Shown piece after piece: positions 438 to 21,976 of a stretch of 21,976 nucleotides of DNA. The notes under the pieces were generated by a model. That model saw only the letters and a program-made list of their open reading frames with translations, did not search any database and was not told where the DNA came from. Every line of letters starts with the position of its first letter. Within the stretch, counting starts at the first letter, position 1. The position numbers were made by a program, and so were the translations under genes. The DNA comes from a virus: IMG/VR virus record IMGVR_UViG_3300021957_000359, positions 1-21,976 of that record. The stretch is one strand, 5' to 3'.

Positions 438-689
438 TTATGCCACCTCCTCTTCATCTTGTTGATAGTGTTCTGCTATTTCTTGCCAGTCGACATTTTG
501 AAGGAAAGCTAAAGCGTAATCTCTACCGATGCCTTCATCAGTACTTTGCTCGATCAATTCCTCTGCAAATTCACGCATACCATCAGATGATCCATAAGCC
601 CAGCTTTCACCGTCTCCATCGAATAGCTCTAAATTAACTCTCCATGTTTCATAGTTTGTCCAGCCGTTATATGTATTGTCGTTTTTCAT
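438..689 (-). CDS. DUF7249-like small phage protein (83 aa)
   Basis: The protein begins MKNDNTYNGWTNYETWRVN. The 'YNGWTNYETWRVNLE' block is the signature I associate with the DUF7249-type small proteins common in phages and some bacterial mobile regions; their function is unknown. The remainder is acidic (GDGESW..., C-terminal DEEEVA). The ATG at 689 is chosen because the family motif begins right after it; the frame can only be extended to a TTG at 737, which adds 16 unrelated residues. The leader is A/T-rich without a Shine-Dalgarno. The gene follows a long gene-poor stretch, so it probably heads a new transcription unit. Confidence 0.75.
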   Translation of the reverse strand: MKNDNTYNGWTNYETWRVNLELFDGDGESWAYGSSDGMREFAEELIEQSTDEGIGRDYALAFLQNVDWQEIAEHYQQDEEEVA

Positions 690-870: not shown

Positions 871-910
871 AATGATCGTTTGTGATCGTTATTGATCGTT
901 ATTGATCGTT
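871..910. repeat. Four tandem 10-bp repeats with TGATCGTT core
   Basis: The units are AATGATCGTT, TGTGATCGTT, ATTGATCGTT and ATTGATCGTT. The 8-bp core TGATCGTT is identical in all four, and only the two leading bases vary. The 10-bp period puts each copy on nearly the same face of the helix, as expected for cooperative protein binding. Each unit contains one GATC. Confidence 0.9.
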
Positions 911-947
911 TTGAAGACGGCTCGAAATATCAAATATACAAGTAAAT

Positions 948-979
948 GATGTCATGACGTCAAGATGTCAACAGGTCAA
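948..979. repeat. Four tandem 8-bp repeats (GAYGTCAA-like)
   Basis: The consecutive octamers are GATGTCAT, GACGTCAA, GATGTCAA and CAGGTCAA. On the minus strand each reads as a TTGAC/ATGAC element, so the array presents phased -35-like hexamers to leftward transcription. It lies 37 bp from the 10-bp array. Confidence 0.85.
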
Positions 980-1001
980 GTGACGCAATTCAGCCTGTTG
1001 A
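968..1001. repeat. 8-bp inverted repeat TCAACAGG / CCTGTTGA
   Basis: The arms at 968-975 and 994-1001 are perfectly complementary across an 18-bp spacer. They join the end of the octamer array to the adjacent CTGTTGAT duplication. This may be an operator or a stem. Confidence 0.7.
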
Positions 1002-1010
1002 TCTGTTGAT
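995..1010. repeat. Tandem duplication of CTGTTGAT
   Basis: Two identical octamers lie directly side by side. Their complement (ATCAACAG) resembles part of the neighbouring octamer array (GTCAACAG), so a single protein could read both. Confidence 0.8.
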
Positions 1011-1115
1011 ATGCGAACCCTGTTAATGCAAGTAAGTTGCAATAAGCAAAACATCTGTTTACCTTCTAAAAGCCTTAAGCGATTAGACATAATACATATT
1101 TGACGAACTCTTTTC

Positions 1116-1152
1116 TAGTACATAGGTTATAAATCAGTGCTAAAATGTACTA
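1116..1152. repeat. 8-bp inverted repeat TAGTACAT / ATGTACTA
   Basis: The arms at 1116-1123 and 1145-1152 are perfectly complementary with a 21-bp spacer. There is no T-tract beside them, so a terminator is unlikely. A dyad operator is possible. Confidence 0.6.
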
Positions 1153-1280
1153 TATCTAACAAGTTGTCATAAATCGCATACAAAAACACCTGCCCCCCCA
1201 TAGAAAAAAAGTAGGGTAGCCAAGGGGTAAATTTATGTTTGCGTATATAGCGTAAGCCCTTCAGATTTTTTCGACTAATC

Positions 1281-1484
1281 TTAAAAGTTAGGACTGATTA
1301 GATCGTCTTCATCGTCCATGTCTTCGGCACTGAATAGTATCTCAGCGTCAGTCAAAACGGTCAGTTTAGCGAACTCCAACGAGCCTACTATTGTCTGGTC
1401 GTTAAGATCGAACTCCTGCTGGTATCTCCTGATTAAGTTGTCCAAGTCGAACATAAAAGAGTCTGTTTGGTCGTTGTTATTCAT
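1281..1484 (-). CDS. Acidic small hypothetical protein (67 aa)
   Basis: The protein starts MNNNDQTDSFMFDLDNL and is strongly acidic, with a C-terminal cluster EDMDDEDDL. The middle is probably helical (LIRRYQQEFDL, SLEFAKLTVLTDAEIL). An AGGTAGAG about 13 nt upstream of the ATG is a weak, distant Shine-Dalgarno. It stands alone between two gene-poor stretches downstream of the large terminase, the position of the small 19.x genes in T7, to which I see no similarity. Small acidic phage proteins often act as DNA mimics or host-protein inhibitors, but that is only a possibility. Function unknown. Confidence 0.65.
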   Translation of the reverse strand: MNNNDQTDSFMFDLDNLIRRYQQEFDLNDQTIVGSLEFAKLTVLTDAEILFSAEDMDDEDDLISPNF

Positions 1485-1964: not shown

Positions 1965-3650
1965 CTAAGTCCAGAGTATAGCTTTACTTCTACTACTTCT
2001 CTTATAGAAAGAGTCAGTAAACTTTGTTAACTCTTGTTGTAACAGTTCTTGTTTTCTATCAACCATACTTTGGTCTACATCAGCAGCCATTTGCTGCACC
2101 CAATAACCAACAGCGATTGATAGAGCATCAAGACGGTCATCATGAGCCAAGCTACCTCTATCTCTTGTTATCCTGGTTAACTGATAGAACAGCATATATT
2201 TAGTCTGTTGTTCTATAGGGTAGCTAAGAGCACTCTTATAGTCGTCAGTAACACAAGAAGGATCAAAGATAAGTCTATGACTGTTTAACACAGGTTCTAA
2301 CGTGTCTACGATTCTAAGCTCCTTCTGTTTGTTATGTCTTACTTCTTCTATTGTTACAGGGTAAGAGGTACGAAACAGAGGTTTAATCAGTTCCATAAAC
2401 ATACCGTCACCAAAGTTAGACTCTATAACTACTTTGTTAACTTTGTTATCCTTAGCGATAGCGACCAGTCGTTTAAGAGTTACTTCATCGTACCCACCTT
2501 TAATACCACCGACACTAGGAACGAACAACTGACCGTTAAGCATCTTGACAACAGCGTACCCTGTTTCATCCTTACCTCGTCCTGACGGGTCAATAGATAG
2601 AACAGAGCCACTATAAGGTACGTTCTCACCGATAGTCTTAAAGGGTCGTTTAAAGCGGTCACCACTCAAACCTACATTAGGCAGTGTCTTATCAGCTAGA
2701 TCGTTATCAGAGGACCACAGTACCTTCTCAGGAGCCGTATCAACATCTACATCTAATATGATAAGGTCGTTGATCTTCAGAGGGTATCTATCAGCATCAG
2801 AGAGCTTAGGATTAAGCATGAACTGTAGAGCGTACCCAGTACGACCGTACGACATCTTACGCTCCTCAAGGTCCATATTAGTGAAGCGAGTAGGTTCTGT
2901 AGTTGTACCGACAGTAGCTTCATCGATTTTATTACTCAGGAGAGGTGCTAGATCGCCTCCGTAGTTCGCATCGACTTCTATCTCATTAGGATACTCAGAA
3001 GGCCATATACGTGCGTTGTAGCCCCTGTCTCGCAGTTTGTTGTATATAGAGTCTTCACATTGAGGAGTACCCAGGAAGAGGATACGAGAGGTGTCTAAGG
3101 GTTTAAGGATAGCTTCGAACTCTTTTACTTGTTCATCTAGCTTATCCCGCATACCTTGAGTAGCAGAGTTGTTAGGTACTTCTACGTCGTCAGCAACGAT
3201 GATGTCAGCACGACTACCTGTTAACTGTGAGGAGATACCTAGAGATTTAACAGAGGGAGCGTGAGAAGCAGGACTGGGTCCGACATCAAAGGCTATCTTA
3301 CTGAATCGTTGGTTCTCTGTAGGTTTTAGGTGATGTAGTATAGGTATCTCCTGGATGATCCGTAGAGTGAAAGTAGAGAAGTCATCGGCACGATTCTTGC
3401 TGGCAGATACAACAAGTATGTTCTTACTAGGGTTGAGTAGGAGTTGATGTACTACATATGCACTACAAACCCACGACTTACCTACTCCACGAAACGCCAT
3501 GATTAACGACCGCTTAGGACCGTGCTGCATATAGTCAGCTATGTCGTACTGTAATTCAGTAGGATCAGGAAGGTTAAGATGTTTCCATACGATGTACAGG
3601 AAGTTACGGAAGTCTTTAAGACTCTCAGGTATCTCTTGGTGTTTCTTCAT
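1965..3650 (-). CDS. terL: Large terminase subunit (TerL), T7 gp19-like
   Basis: This is the ATP-driven DNA-packaging motor and headful/terminus nuclease. It is 561 aa, close to T7 gp19 (586 aa). The N-terminal ATPase has a Walker A-type loop AFRGVGKSW (residues 52-60), Walker B IIVADDVE (150-157, with the catalytic Glu after the Asp pair) and the coupling motif LFLGTPQ (191-197). The C-terminal RNase H-like nuclease has SIDPSGRGKDETG (352-364), VVIESNFGDG (407-416) and LAHDDRLDAL (501-510), which supply the acidic metal ligands. All key motifs look intact. No Shine-Dalgarno is visible before the ATG; the leader is TTTTACTTTACAAT. It is preceded by the small terminase and a hairpin. Confidence 0.97.
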   Translation of the reverse strand: MKKHQEIPESLKDFRNFLYIVWKHLNLPDPTELQYDIADYMQHGPKRSLIMAFRGVGKSWVCSAYVVHQLLLNPSKNILVVSASKNRADDFSTFTLRIIQEIPILHHLKPTENQRFSKIAFDVGPSPASHAPSVKSLGISSQLTGSRADIIVADDVEVPNNSATQGMRDKLDEQVKEFEAILKPLDTSRILFLGTPQCEDSIYNKLRDRGYNARIWPSEYPNEIEVDANYGGDLAPLLSNKIDEATVGTTTEPTRFTNMDLEERKMSYGRTGYALQFMLNPKLSDADRYPLKINDLIILDVDVDTAPEKVLWSSDNDLADKTLPNVGLSGDRFKRPFKTIGENVPYSGSVLSIDPSGRGKDETGYAVVKMLNGQLFVPSVGGIKGGYDEVTLKRLVAIAKDNKVNKVVIESNFGDGMFMELIKPLFRTSYPVTIEEVRHNKQKELRIVDTLEPVLNSHRLIFDPSCVTDDYKSALSYPIEQQTKYMLFYQLTRITRDRGSLAHDDRLDALSIAVGYWVQQMAADVDQSMVDRKQELLQQELTKFTDSFYKRSSRSKAILWT

Positions 3651-3719: not shown

Positions 3720-3968
3720 TTAAAGCTGTTTCTCTATAGGTGTTTCTTGTTCTTCGTTAAAAGGTAACGTATTGAAGTCAGTACCTAGTTGATCCAAAGC
3801 AGTACCGCTACGGTTATCAACAGTTACATTGTTATCCTTTAAGTACTGTCTAATCATATTCATCAACGAAGGATTATACTCCTCCATAGACTTCATAAAA
3901 TCAATAGATGCTGAACATAGTTTTGTTAACCCGTCAGCAAGTTTAGCTCCTTCTACGTGATCTTTCAT
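3720..3968 (-). CDS. terS: Small terminase subunit (TerS), T7 gp18-like
   Basis: The 82-aa protein starts MKDHVEGAKLADGLTKLCSA. Small size (T7 gp18 is 89 aa), helical content and position directly upstream of terL point to the DNA-recognition subunit of the packaging motor. Residues 32-50 (NPSLMNMIRQYLKDNNVTV) resemble the T7 gp18 stretch around 'SPQLYNAINKLLDRHKF', a pattern shared by podovirus small terminases, and an acidic, proline-containing tail follows. The start lies 6 bp after the stop of the RHH gene, with only a weak GAGAGA upstream. Assignment rests on synteny plus weak similarity. Confidence 0.75.
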   Translation of the reverse strand: MKDHVEGAKLADGLTKLCSASIDFMKSMEEYNPSLMNMIRQYLKDNNVTVDNRSGTALDQLGTDFNTLPFNEEQETPIEKQL

Positions 3969-3974
3969 ATAATT

Positions 3975-4166
3975 TTAGTCTCTCAGCAGTTGGTCGTGGT
4001 CGCCTCGTCCGTTCATGTTGTTGAGTATACGGGTAACCCACGATTGCAGAAGAGCGGAGGAGCTAAGGCCGAGCGTATTGGCGACCTTAGCTACCTCCTT
4101 CTTTTGCGAGCTTGCGAGACGAAAAGTTAAAGCGACTGTATCCTTCTTCTTACTTTTCGAACTCAT
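3975..4166 (-). CDS. Ribbon-helix-helix (Arc/CopG-like) DNA-binding protein
   Basis: The 63-aa protein has a lysine-rich start (MSSKSKKKD), then a beta-strand VALTFRLA (residues 11-18) and two helices (SQKKEVAKVANTLG, SSSALLQSWVTRILNNM). That is the MetJ/Arc/CopG fold order: the strand enters the DNA groove and the helices form the dimer. The 'LGLSSSALLQSWV' segment matches the usual start of helix 2. It lies between the last fibre gene and terS, 6 bp before terS, so it is co-expressed with packaging. It could be a repressor of late or early promoters, or a DNA-recognition accessory of the terminase. Its target is unknown. Confidence 0.7.
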   Translation of the reverse strand: MSSKSKKKDTVALTFRLASSQKKEVAKVANTLGLSSSALLQSWVTRILNNMNGRGDHDQLLRD

Positions 4167-4180
4167 ATAGCAAACTGGTG

Positions 4181-5362
4181 TTAGGCCATTGCAGCTGTAA
4201 AGTCAGCCAATGATCCAAGATTGTTTCCGTCTCCAAGAACAACGTCGTTAGCTTTAACGTCGATCAATTCAGCAGACGAGTCGTCTCCAGTGATGTCAGT
4301 AGAAGTAGCAGAAGCTGAAGTTTTGTAGAAAGCGAACTTGTCTAATCCTTCGTCGTATACTGCAGCGATGTTTCCGTCGTCGGAAGAACCACGCTCAATG
4401 ATAAACCCGGCGTCGTTACCGTTGTTAGCACTTGAACCTGCTCCGTCATTGAGAAGCATGATAGCATCTTTAACTTGGGAGTTGGTGGTTTCAAGGGAAG
4501 TAGTCGTGCCTTGAACGGTTAAGTTACCGCTAAGTACAAGATTGGTTCCACTTACGTCTCCTGTGAAGGAAGCACCACTAAGGTTAGCTTTAGCAACATC
4601 AAGAGCGGACTCAGCTGCACGAGCAGTTGAAGCTTCAGAAGTGATATTCGATTGAAGAGTCGTGTCAGCAGACGCTCTAGCAGTAGCTTCACCACTAACA
4701 GCAGCGATACGAGCAGTTTCTTCGCTGTCGATATTGGACTGTAAAGTCGTATCAGCAGAAGTCCTGGCAGTTTCTTCGTCGTCAATGTTAGTTTGAAGAG
4801 TAGAATCAGCAGCTTGACGTGCAGTCTCTTCAGAATCAATGTTGCTCTGTAAAGTCGAGTCAGCACTGGCTCTTGAGGAAGCTTCACTAGTAATGTTCGA
4901 CTGAAGAGTTGTATCGGCAGATGCACGAGTACTTGCTTCAGAAGAGATAGCGTCAGCGTTAGTTTTGATCTGTCCGTCAAGAGCTTCATCAGCTGCGACC
5001 AAAGAACCAGCAGAAGTGATGTAGTTAGTAGAAGCATTAGCTGAGTACGAACCACCAACACCTAGACCAGCACCACTTTGAGTAGCGTCAAGTTCGGATT
5101 GGATAGCGGAGTCAGCGGATGTTCTGCTACTTGCTTCTGAGTCGATGTTACCTTGTAAGGTACTGTCAGCAGATGCTCGGCTTGAAGCCTCAGCAGTGAT
5201 GTTAGATTGCAGGGTAGTATCAGCACTTGCACGACTGGAAGCTTCGCTGTCGATGTTCGACTGAAGTGTAGCTTCGGCAGCTAACGCACGTGTTTCTTCT
5301 ACTGCAATAGCACTCTTGGTCGATTGACCAATTTGATAGAATATAGATGATGTATCTGGCAT
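4181..5362 (-). CDS. Tail fibre with 18-residue coiled-coil repeats (393 aa)
   Basis: The protein starts MPDTSSIFYQIGQSTKSAIA. Residues 22-260 hold about ten units of an 18-residue repeat of the type EASSRASADTTLQSNI, broken once by a Gly/Ser/Ala insert (GAGLGVGGSYSANAS, from about residue 96). Such Ala/Ser/Leu repeats form long trimeric coiled-coil shafts. The C-terminal part (from about residue 265) has GTNLVLSGNLTVQGTTTSLE, a beta-helix/knob motif seen in marine phage fibres, then a Gly/Asp-rich domain likely to contact the receptor. There is no Shine-Dalgarno; the leader is a CAA-rich unstructured stretch. It is the last fibre gene before the RHH/terminase block. Confidence 0.85.
   Translation of the reverse strand: MPDTSSIFYQIGQSTKSAIAVEETRALAAEATLQSNIDSEASSRASADTTLQSNITAEASSRASADSTLQGNIDSEASSRTSADSAIQSELDATQSGAGLGVGGSYSANASTNYITSAGSLVAADEALDGQIKTNADAISSEASTRASADTTLQSNITSEASSRASADSTLQSNIDSEETARQAADSTLQTNIDDEETARTSADTTLQSNIDSEETARIAAVSGEATARASADTTLQSNITSEASTARAAESALDVAKANLSGASFTGDVSGTNLVLSGNLTVQGTTTSLETTNSQVKDAIMLLNDGAGSSANNGNDAGFIIERGSSDDGNIAAVYDEGLDKFAFYKTSASATSTDITGDDSSAELIDVKANDVVLGDGNNLGSLADFTAAMA
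4600..5300 (-). repeat. Degenerate 54-bp tandem repeats in the fibre gene
   Basis: These encode the roughly ten 18-residue coiled-coil units. The DNA copies are diverged (many synonymous differences, e.g. alternate AGC/TCA serine codons) but keep the 54-bp period. They are split by one non-repeat insert at about 4940-5080. Unit number could change by recombination between copies, altering fibre length. Confidence 0.75.
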
Positions 5363-18336: not shown

Positions 18337-18774
18337 TTACTTTCTCTCTAATATAAATGACATATACCCGTCGAACTGGCAATCGCTAAACTCAGCACCT
18401 AACCACTTCAACCACTTGACACTCAACTCGTTAGTCTTCATCACTACATTTGTTAAGCAATCGTATCCGATCATCAAGTCATCCATCCACTTCTTCGAGT
18501 TAACTACGAAATACTTCTTAACTTCTACTAATCTACGAGTACCCAACAACCAAGCAACGCCTACATTACCTGCATTTGTAACACCGAAGCTACAGTATAA
18601 ACCGTTTTCGTCTCTTAAAGAATACACCTTCTCACTTGTTTCAAATGACATATACACAGCATCTTTAGGGTGGTGCATCAATCCGATACACTCCATCATA
18701 TCCTCTTCCCTCATGTTGTCGTACAACGCAAAAGCATCTATGTCACGCTGTGCTGGTTCTATTCTAAGACCCAT
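18337..18774 (-). CDS. gp13-like protein, GNAT-related (145 aa)
   Basis: The protein starts MGLRIEPAQRDIDAFALYDN. The MREEDMMECIGL segment matches the 'REED..E' motif of T7 gp13 relatives (DUF2833). The middle (GLYCSFGVTNAGNVGVAWLL) and end (NELSVKWLKWLGAEFSDCQF) resemble an acetyltransferase-like fold. T7 gp13 is needed for virion assembly. The ATG at 18774 is preceded by GAGGAG about 8 nt upstream and overlaps the nozzle gene by 11 bp; the longer start at 18807 lies deeper in that gene. Whether it has any enzyme activity is unknown. Confidence 0.82.
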   Translation of the reverse strand: MGLRIEPAQRDIDAFALYDNMREEDMMECIGLMHHPKDAVYMSFETSEKVYSLRDENGLYCSFGVTNAGNVGVAWLLGTRRLVEVKKYFVVNSKKWMDDLMIGYDCLTNVVMKTNELSVKWLKWLGAEFSDCQFDGYMSFILERK

Positions 18775-21700
18775 ATCTTCTACTCCTCGGTATAAACATC
18801 GATTCAAATTCTGCAGCTAATAGCTTAACTGGCAAGGCTGAATCGCTCTTTACTTCAATTGTTACTTCGTTTGGTTGTGCTTGTACTGCAAATCTAAAGT
18901 GTCCGTCTTGTGGTTTAAACTCATTCAACGATAGGTTAGCTCCTACTATGTCAGGATTAAACACATACTTGTAAGTGTCTCTGTATAAAGGAGTTACTTC
19001 TACTGTAAAGTGTCCTGTGTCTGCATAGTTCAAGCTACCGTTCCGTATTGTTTGGAAGGTGTAATCAGAAGCAGATCGTCCTCCTCTTTCAGTAGGTTGC
19101 TTGAGTGATTGATTGGAGAACCTGTACAACATATTGTACGGCTTACCTATAAAGAAGTACTTGTCGTTGTTATAGAAGTTACCACTAGACCATATAGTAG
19201 CAAAGTTAACATCAGAGTTAACAGTCCATTTATCACTTGTAGCAGGACTATCAGAATCAGAAGCAGTATGAGTCTCTACACATTTATAGATAACACCTTT
19301 ACTGTAAGCAGTAGCAGCTGCCCAATCAGGAGTACCGTCAGGAACCTCTGTTACTTCTCTCCAGTTACTCGCAACAAAGTCAGAGCCTGAAGTATGAGCT
19401 GTTACACAGTAGTAGAGTTTACCGTCATAAGATACATAATCACCGCTTCCATCATCAGCATAACTAGCTAAAGTACCTGTAACACTGATAGAACTAGAAC
19501 TAGCTATACTCACCGCTCTCTCTGTTCCTATCTTTGTATATAGTTGTAATCCTGTCGTGTCGTAAGGTATACCGCTAATGGTAGTCTTCTTAGTAGTAGG
19601 ATTATATAACGATACGGTAACATCTTCTCCGTCCACTCTGCTATCAAGATATAAACTATAATCTAAACCAGTGTCCTTTAATCCGTCCTCTAAGGTTAAC
19701 GATTCAAGGTGTAGTCCTTCTGTATCAGATGTAAGCATAAACAACTTACTGTCTATAAAGTCACACCCTACGATGTCACGCTCAAAAGTAAACTTCATCC
19801 AAGCACTTTGTATCTTCTCCTTGTTACTCCAGAAGTACTTATATACAAACAGAGTCTTCAGATCATCATCAGTAGTTATAACAAGTGTATTCTCAGTAGG
19901 ACTACCTACGATACGAGTAGCTTTCTTACTGATGTACTTAGGTATCTGTTGAGTAATCTCTTCAGCGTTGAATGTCTCAGTGTTGTTATCGACAAAGTAT
20001 TCATACACACCTTCGTAATCATTCCGTTGAAAGGTAAAGTATATATAGTTACCTACTGCTAATGGATTGATACTGTCTGATATATCGTACTCAGTAACAG
20101 GAGATATAGCTACCGTCTTAGGACTTAGTATATCTGCACCTCTCAACACAAACTGTGACTGCTTACTGAATAACATCAGCTTCTCTTGGAACGGTATAGC
20201 GTGTTGTAGTACTGCTACTTTTGTGTGACTGAGTCCTACATCTATAGGTGCACTGTCTAACAACTGTTGAGTAGTAGTACGGAAGAAGTTAAAGTAAGCA
20301 TCTGCTTCACTAAAGATAACAGCGTTGTTAGTCAGGAATCCTAGACGGTTCTTAAAGAAGAAGATGTCATTGATCGTCTGTCCAACAAAAGAAGGGAAAG
20401 GATTAGTACCGTCATCACCTGCTTGTCTAGAAGTGTAACCTAAAGAACCGTTAACATATCTTTTATTTACTTCCCAATCAGGTGCTGTAGTAAAGTCAGT
20501 AGTAGCTACCCAATACTCTTCCCAATCGTAAACTCCATTACCATCTGTATCCACAGTAGAACCAGGAGCAGTATCAGCAGTTGAAACGTGTTCTTCTACT
20601 AAGTTATATATCGTACCGTTTCGTTCTACTGTCCCTACTAATTCGTTGGGAGCCTGTACTATAAATTTATTAACACTACCATCCCCGTTGAGCTTAGGAA
20701 CAATAGTAACAGGCATCGATTCAGGGTCTATTGTGGTATCTATACCGACAAGAGGTGCTGCAGCTCTTCCGTCGTCCTCCCAACCTACAGTCTCTACCCA
20801 ACTGCCTTCACCATAATCCTCTTTATCTTTTGTTGCAAAGCGTACATAGTAATCGTCTTGTGCTATATCAGCATCACCACGAACTTTTATACGAAACTCG
20901 TGAAAGCAACGCTTAGGTAAGTCCGTAATACTATCTACTTCTTTATAAGCTACACCTAAACCTTGATTAGCTAAACCGTCTTCTGTCCGAATACTAAAGT
21001 CTTTATTGTTAGTAATCTTTATTATAGCACCTTCACGCTCCACTTCGTACTCTGTACCTAACAAAGGAGATGCAGTAAAGTTAGGCATGGTTACGCCATA
21101 AGAAGCAGCGTTAGCTTCTGTGATTTCTTCAACATTTGAAGTAAATATCCAAGGATAATACCAGACGTTTTCATAACGCTTTTTTATCGTCAGCTTAAAA
21201 GTGTCGTTTAAGTTTGGTAATGTTCCGTCGTACCCTGTTCCTTTGTGTGTTAAAGTACTAGATTGAACACTGCCTCCTGAAAAAACAACTGTACCCTTGG
21301 CTCCAAAACCTATTTGCACGGCCGTAGGGTCTGTGTAATCTTTGTCGTACTGGTCTACAAGGTATTCGTAGGTGTTGTATATATGACCTTTTTTAGTTGT
21401 GTGTTTAGAAGTGTCATCCCATCCTGAACCGCCAGTCAATGTAGTCGTACTGACTCTTGTGTCAGATGCTAGGTAAGTGCTTAAAACTGTCTGTAAAGCT
21501 TCTGCTATGTATTCAGTGTCAGCGTGTAAACCAGTGCCTGAGCCTAGCGATGTATACGTGTGGCCGTCGTTGTGCGGAGAAGCAGCGTCGATTACTTTCC
21601 CGTCTAAATATATATCGTAAGTTTTCTCGTAATCACCAAGCTTAACAAAAACTAACGCTTGGTACTTACCGTCGCTATTCCTAACGTCTTTACTTTTTAG

Positions 21701-21976
21701 ATCAGCATCTGTATTAATAGCTACCGTCTTACTCTTATTAACAAGAAAGGTATAGTCAGCTACCGTCAAAGCTCTTACTTCTTTAATCGGCTCTGTTATA
21801 CTGTTTAGGTAAGTCTGAGCAATAGAAGTAGTAACAACAGGAATAGAAGTACCTAGTGATAAATTGTAAGCACTGACGCTACCACCTAACGATACATTGA
21901 TAACATACTTGTTCTTCTCGTCTCGCTTAACAAAGTGTGTGAATAGATTAGTAGGCTGACTACTGTCTACATTCTT
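18764..21976 (-). CDS. Tail nozzle protein (tail tubular protein B), gp12-like, 5'-partial
   Basis: The frame stays open to the right edge: 69 codons precede the TTG at 21769, so the start is outside the window and at least 1070 aa are visible. TVADYTFLVNK (after 21769) matches T7 gp12 'TVADYTFIVNR', and NPFPSFVGQTINDIFFFKNR (about 20341-20404) matches the T7 segment 'PWPSFVGSSINDVFFFRNR'. The C-terminus FIPRSRRYGS also fits. The protein forms the distal tail tube and fibre platform. It is longer than T7 gp12 (794 aa). Extra sequence includes an EF-hand-like loop (DTDGNGVYDWEEY) and two CBM-like repeats near the C-terminal end. Confidence 0.95.
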   Translation of the reverse strand, partial: KNVDSSQPTNLFTHFVKRDEKNKYVINVSLGGSVSAYNLSLGTSIPVVTTSIAQTYLNSITEPIKEVRALTVADYTFLVNKSKTVAINTDADLKSKDVRNSDGKYQALVFVKLGDYEKTYDIYLDGKVIDAASPHNDGHTYTSLGSGTGLHADTEYIAEALQTVLSTYLASDTRVSTTTLTGGSGWDDTSKHTTKKGHIYNTYEYLVDQYDKDYTDPTAVQIGFGAKGTVVFSGGSVQSSTLTHKGTGYDGTLPNLNDTFKLTIKKRYENVWYYPWIFTSNVEEITEANAASYGVTMPNFTASPLLGTEYEVEREGAIIKITNNKDFSIRTEDGLANQGLGVAYKEVDSITDLPKRCFHEFRIKVRGDADIAQDDYYVRFATKDKEDYGEGSWVETVGWEDDGRAAAPLVGIDTTIDPESMPVTIVPKLNGDGSVNKFIVQAPNELVGTVERNGTIYNLVEEHVSTADTAPGSTVDTDGNGVYDWEEYWVATTDFTTAPDWEVNKRYVNGSLGYTSRQAGDDGTNPFPSFVGQTINDIFFFKNRLGFLTNNAVIFSEADAYFNFFRTTTQQLLDSAPIDVGLSHTKVAVLQHAIPFQEKLMLFSKQSQFVLRGADILSPKTVAISPVTEYDISDSINPLAVGNYIYFTFQRNDYEGVYEYFVDNNTETFNAEEITQQIPKYISKKATRIVGSPTENTLVITTDDDLKTLFVYKYFWSNKEKIQSAWMKFTFERDIVGCDFIDSKLFMLTSDTEGLHLESLTLEDGLKDTGLDYSLYLDSRVDGEDVTVSLYNPTTKKTTISGIPYDTTGLQLYTKIGTERAVSIASSSSISVTGTLASYADDGSGDYVSYDGKLYYCVTAHTSGSDFVASNWREVTEVPDGTPDWAAATAYSKGVIYKCVETHTASDSDSPATSDKWTVNSDVNFATIWSSGNFYNNDKYFFIGKPYNMLYRFSNQSLKQPTERGGRSASDYTFQTIRNGSLNYADTGHFTVEVTPLYRDTYKYVFNPDIVGANLSLNEFKPQDGHFRFAVQAQPNEVTIEVKSDSALPVKLLAAEFESMFIPRSRRYGS

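Follow-up and report, generated by a model that had tools for sequence, protein, structure and literature searches.

Exchangeable direct-repeat arrays in the left genome end of a T7-like marine phage, with a candidate DeoR/GlpR-type operator

What do short direct repeats do in the non-coding left end of a T7-like phage genome? The window analysed here, that is, the whole stretch of DNA, is a 21,976-base virus record, a T7-like (Autographiviridae) fragment whose minus strand encodes T7-like structural genes; its source genome is that of a T7-like marine phage. Between positions 871 and 1010 it carries adjacent short repeats for which a preliminary description offered four options: an iteron-type origin, a multi-site operator, a packaging or terminus recognition site, and a leftward early promoter. 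To our knowledge, the function of short repeats beside T7-type terminal repeats is not settled. The interpretation given in that description is partly supported, and the multi-site operator is the best supported of its four options, the units being conserved, one-stranded, helically phased and DeoR-operator-like. The repeat elements of the region are the following.

873..910, minus strand: the A array, four AACGATCA units (TGATCGTT on the plus strand) with a 10-bp period, DeoR-operator-like.
948..979, minus strand: tandem 8-bp NGAYGTCA units, an exchangeable upstream cassette with a MetJ met-box likeness in layout only.
982..1018, minus strand: cassette GTTCGCATATCAACAGATCAACAGGCTGAATTGCGTC, containing both CTGTTGAT units and common to many relatives.
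1028..1042, minus strand: cassette TTGCAACTTACTTGC, a TTGC direct repeat with an 11-bp period, common to many relatives.

The four 10-bp units with an identical core were borne out, with TGATCGTT starting at 873, 883, 893 and 903, and this array scored 32 of 32 identical columns, as compared with a mean of 23 and a maximum of 25 for random Markov (dinucleotide-based) sequences modelled on the array region. The four GAYGTCAA-type units are present at 948-979 with a period of 8, reading GATGTCAT, GACGTCAA, GATGTCAA and CAGGTCAA, the last being a weak match; their score of 28 also exceeds the random maximum of 25. These are the two strongest periodic arrays of the 22-kb window, across which a scan of periods 7-13 found no other site scoring 28. 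Moreover, TGATCGTT occurs five times in the window, four of them within the array, and 0 of 100 shuffles held five copies. Two perfect CTGTTGAT units were confirmed at 995-1010; taken alone this two-copy unit is weak, and it belongs to a larger shared element. The inverted repeat reported to join the arrays exists, 960-975 pairing with 994-1009, but is imperfect (81%). An Rfam search gave no match.

The octamers had also been read as phased TTGAC (-35-like) elements of a leftward early promoter. TTGAC is literally there, and the region does precede the first minus-strand early genes, but a sigma-70 scan of the array region found 6 sites against 5.7 in shuffles and thus no convincing promoter in the window.

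To establish the position of the arrays in the genome, the flanking genes and the terminal repeat have to be considered.

441..689, minus strand: first gene beyond the array; its 83-aa product is DUF7249-like but just under the Pfam cut-off.
1085..1252, minus strand: inferred terminal repeat, its 1252 end well supported and its ~1085 end tentative.
1253..1271, minus strand: conserved sequence AAAAAATCTGAAGGGCTTA directly outside the terminal repeat, with the T7 counterpart AAAAATCTGAGTGACTA.
1281..1484, minus strand: conserved short ORF of 67 aa, on the stretch from terL to the terminal repeat.
1965..3650, minus strand: terminase large subunit (TerL).
3720..3968, minus strand: terminase small subunit (TerS), a weak PHROG match, the same in relatives with and without the array.
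3975..4166, minus strand: small protein earlier described as RHH, the same in relatives with and without the array.

The best relatives of TerL are Ayaqvirus S45C18 (64%) and marine roseophages (59%); the protein described as RHH had no match in Pfam or PHROG. Reading downstream from terL, the 67-aa ORF is followed by AAAAAATCTGAAGGGCTTA and, across the cut site, by CGCTATATACGC. Just before the terminal repeats of T7 and HTVC019P, whose lengths read from the records are 160 bp and 162 bp, stand AAAAATCTGAGTGACTA and GAAAATTATGAGGGGGTA, respectively, the cut-site sequence being common to the window and both phages. The cut-site block was found in most of 46 dereplicated relatives, and three contigs that represent independent relatives from different samples (L121, L136 and L141) start no more than 1 base from the cut site. 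Because the cut-site sequence is conserved and three contigs start there, the left end of the terminal repeat was put at 1252; its right end is tentatively placed near 1085 by a conserved TTATGTCT block. With the terminal repeat at 1252-1085, the arrays, downstream of terL in the non-coding left (leading) genome end, would lie about 75-212 bp past it, inside the left end and ahead of the first early gene.

Several other features of this genome deserve mention. The sequence AAAAATCTGAG...CTA (1253-1271, minus strand), outside the start of the terminal repeat, is present in most relatives and also in T7, and this conserved boundary could help to place genome ends in T7-like metagenomic contigs of the group. 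Inside the terminal repeat (1190-1215, minus strand), many relatives carry TTCTTATAGGGGAGGG, which is near the T7 promoter core; in the window only TTTTTTCTATGGGGG is present there, found once. ATCTGTT, the T7 RNA polymerase pause motif, was rejected as a candidate, as it occurs in the window only on the strand opposite late transcription. The nozzle protein (tail tube B; 18764-21769, minus strand) contains an insertion, the carbohydrate-binding module CBM_5_12, which may be an add-on for host binding, and a probable tail-fibre gene contains 54-bp tandem repeats at 5140-5271 (DTTLQSNI...SEASSRASA coiled repeats).

Conservation of the unit in related phages holds for 33 of 59 related junctions, where the slot carries a same-strand, 10-bp-phased AACGATCA array; elsewhere it holds other, mostly short-repeat sequences. 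Relatives with the same gene order and no repeats whatever had been named as the finding that would overturn a functional reading, and most relatives in fact retain some short repeat, often a different one. A scan of IMG/VR for two AACGATCA units 10 bp apart recovered 50 stretches, as against 7 for the backwards control, and in about 30 of the 50 the array lies 245-390 bp past the start of the terminal repeat. Among 33 dereplicated arrays comprising 127 units, mostly four per array, the unit spacing is exactly 10 bp in 83 of 94 gaps, most of the remainder being 11 or 21. Eight core positions are nearly invariant across the 127 units, a conservation somewhat inflated by the selection of units for core similarity, which leaves linkers, orientation and phase unaffected. 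The two linker bases vary in 57/83 and 45/83 neighbour pairs, and exact units number 92 forward and 0 reverse. As judged from these patterns, conservation of the array is constraint on a putative bound site and not slippage. No such array was found in the stretches read of the cultured roseophages CRP-113 and CRP-125, nor did GenBank phages include near-DNA relatives of the junction. A second phage lineage (L108, L122, L133 and L137) carries AACGATCA arrays in non-coding DNA close to the terminase genes, with units opposite to the gene strand; these gave no clear clue to function.

Where the AACGATCA array is missing, the slot is occupied by CCAAATATGGAA-type pairs, GTGTCA-type, ATTGAAAC (9-bp period), GTCTCAA or TATAC types, as assigned by eye, and about six array families reappear in distant lineages. 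The elements upstream of the slot are also mixed and matched, among them TTGC direct repeats, CGCAAAT...ATTGCGTC, CGTATCAA...TTGATGCG and the 8-bp tandem. Most instructive are the closest relatives: between the window and L001, L002 and L003, TerS and the RHH protein show 100% identity, and L001 and L003, with TerL identities to the window of 100% and 96%, have both flanks of its slot with another sequence between them in place of the array. The 8-bp NGAYGTCA units (948-979) are likewise missing in L003, despite its identical TerS and RHH protein. On a TerL tree of 40 phages the array type changes 21 times (shuffled-label mean, 22.4), and the A array against the rest changes 13 times (12.7 shuffled), so that array type is random relative to the tree. 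Together, the swaps in L001 and L003 and these change counts, which match the shuffles, indicate that array type is uncoupled from the terminase. Furthermore, since phages with identical proteins carry different arrays, TerS, TerL and RHH are not the specific readers of the array. A TerS recognition (pac) site is thereby rejected, as is an RHH operator, with regard to both the 10-bp array and the 8-bp units. The proposal of a packaging or terminus site was thus right about the place, just inside the terminal repeat, and wrong about TerS and RHH as its readers. Natural swaps with an unchanged terminase separate the array from recognition by packaging proteins and point to transcriptional control by host regulators.

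Which regulator might read the array is suggested by its resemblance to DeoR-family operators. Scanning bacterial genomes for three units returned eight arrays, in unrelated bacteria. One of these belongs to a DeoR/GlpR gene of Acidomonas methanolica (L158), whose promoter bears a 4-unit array and whose end bears a 2-unit pair, with the identical AACGATCA core. Close homologues of this regulator (about 50% identity) were picked by protein or gene similarity alone, and all eight promoters fetched have a 10-bp pair with at most 5/16 mismatches (16% of background windows), two of them with at most 1/16 (0.3% of background windows); the eight are not independent, six being rhizobial, and the set is small and partly redundant. 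Of 30 alphaproteobacterial homologue promoters, 11 stay within 4 mismatches at the spacings tested, compared with about 10% of background windows. The motifs of the DeoR-family regulator RhaR (Chloroflexus and others) are direct repeats with 10-11 bp periodicity, and binding is reported for a 38-bp tandem of four sites (PMC3870299). The phage array shares this period, and its unit sequence occurs in promoters of DeoR-family genes, albeit in the small and partly redundant close-homologue set. Against the link, just one of the eight bacterial three-unit arrays adjoins a DeoR gene, and bacterial arrays of the AACGATCA core are rare. Sampled Alphaproteobacteria and Flavobacteriaceae yielded no AACGATCA pairs beyond the seed genomes, and a host-wide motif was therefore rejected. 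The promoter comparison covered Acidomonas and homologues of its regulator. A DeoR HTH was found in 0 of 17 phage records, an absence that is not final because many of these are fragments. Since no phage record tested has such a domain, a host regulator is the most likely binder; and because the binder would have to be host-derived, we do not claim membership in the DeoR/GlpR operators for the array.

We therefore favour, while holding it to be somewhat short of probable, a reading in which the A array is an exchangeable early-region cassette, a DeoR/GlpR-type operator read by a host regulator and affecting early transcription. What the data establish is where the array lies, its conservation, phasing and orientation, and its exchange independently of the packaging proteins; that the binder is of DeoR type and host-derived, and that it acts on early transcription, is inference. 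The repeats at 871-1010 would be exchangeable protein-binding cassettes, sited past the terminal repeat and ahead of the first early gene, and the four AACGATCA units, one per helical turn, would allow a host regulator to occupy adjacent units along one face of the helix. The bound regulator may repress, delay or tune early transcription in response to host metabolic state, or else the array may titrate it. The distance from the array to a TTGACA box ranges from 35 to about 280 bp, and distances to the gene are also variable. This variation argues against a fixed activator geometry; with neither distances nor promoter geometry fixed, classical activation fits less well than repression, roadblock or titration. 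Rather than serving as an origin or a packaging site, the locus is probably a control element of the plug-in kind. In T7, the left end enters first and bears host promoters. A wider generalization, which we regard as possible but distinctly less likely, is that apparently lytic T7-like phages keep in the first-entering end operators for host metabolic regulators, as a modular panel that is swapped between near-identical phages and tunes early infection to host regulators and metabolic state. If true, this would provide lytic phages with a simple means to read host metabolism, and it is directly testable.

Two alternatives retain some weight, each with a rather small chance of being correct. 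One is that the array is the counterpart of the T7 SRL short repeats, for which a packaging role is sometimes discussed, and aids concatemer processing or packaging with a unit sequence free to drift. The slot is the same: in T7, whose terminal repeat is 160 bp long, 13-bp CCTAAAG repeats follow it at 174-340, and in HTVC019P the 162-bp terminal repeat is followed by 12-, 10- and 8-bp repeats at 240-307. The window array also lies beside the terminal repeat at the left end; however, T7 also carries its units within the terminal repeat and, at the right end, ahead of it, and the window array is confined to the left side. The array differs between phages that have identical TerS and TerL, and a drifting spacer would not hold one 8-bp core and exact helical phase across phages. 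An operator or silencer for a phage protein other than TerS or RHH, for example an early regulator setting superinfection exclusion groups, is about as improbable. The swaps between near-identical phages do recall operator exchange among immunity groups, and the recurrence of array families in distant lineages fits as well, but no early gene strictly tracks array type, the association test showing only lineage effects, with the strongest gene associations those of phage lineage. Prophage immunity was rejected, with no integrase in 12 records.

An iteron-type origin is very unlikely. Short phased direct repeats in a non-coding region would suit it, and a small protein resembling DnaA domain IV is encoded by some relatives, but a family A DNA polymerase is present in 6/6 records tested, a T7-like RNA polymerase ORF is seen downstream, and no Rep gene was noticed on reading the early regions of relatives. 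T7-type polymerases go with promoter-primed initiation, and their presence here leads us to expect the same mode. The near-complete G001 has the array but no DnaA-like protein, and G008 and G014 have the protein but no array at their junctions; the protein was rejected as the array binder, not being tied to array type. This small protein is the DnaA DNA-binding domain (PF08299), found in 10 of 47 phage records (L009, L015, L017 and others) in the early region, close to its RNA polymerase end. Least credible of all is a neutral minisatellite produced by replication slippage, since, for all the tandem 10-bp units and the similar arrays in unrelated bacteria, linkers diverge while cores stay constant, in a single orientation and a fixed place.

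Set beside known systems, the repeats of the window share features with several. The 948-979 array resembles MetJ met boxes in its tandem 8-bp units and GACGTC-like core; the likeness is in layout only, the NGAYGTCA unit differing from the met-box consensus, AGACGTCT. HTVC019P too has short repeats past its terminal repeat, in its case at 78-145 bp, with unrelated unit sequences and mixed periods. The T7 SRL/SRR arrays (CCTAAAG) likewise place short direct repeats at the left end, in the interval from the terminal repeat to the first early genes, but have a 13-bp period and extend within and left of the terminal repeat, whereas the window array has a 10-bp period, keeps to the left side and is exchanged between close relatives. 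Finally, the A array differs from DeoR/GlpR operators in lying in a phage end without a DeoR gene, and from rhizobial DeoR promoters in having no -35 box directly downstream of the repeats; what it shares with the operators of RhaR and Acidomonas is a tandem of direct repeats at 10-11 bp, with four units spanning about 38 bp.
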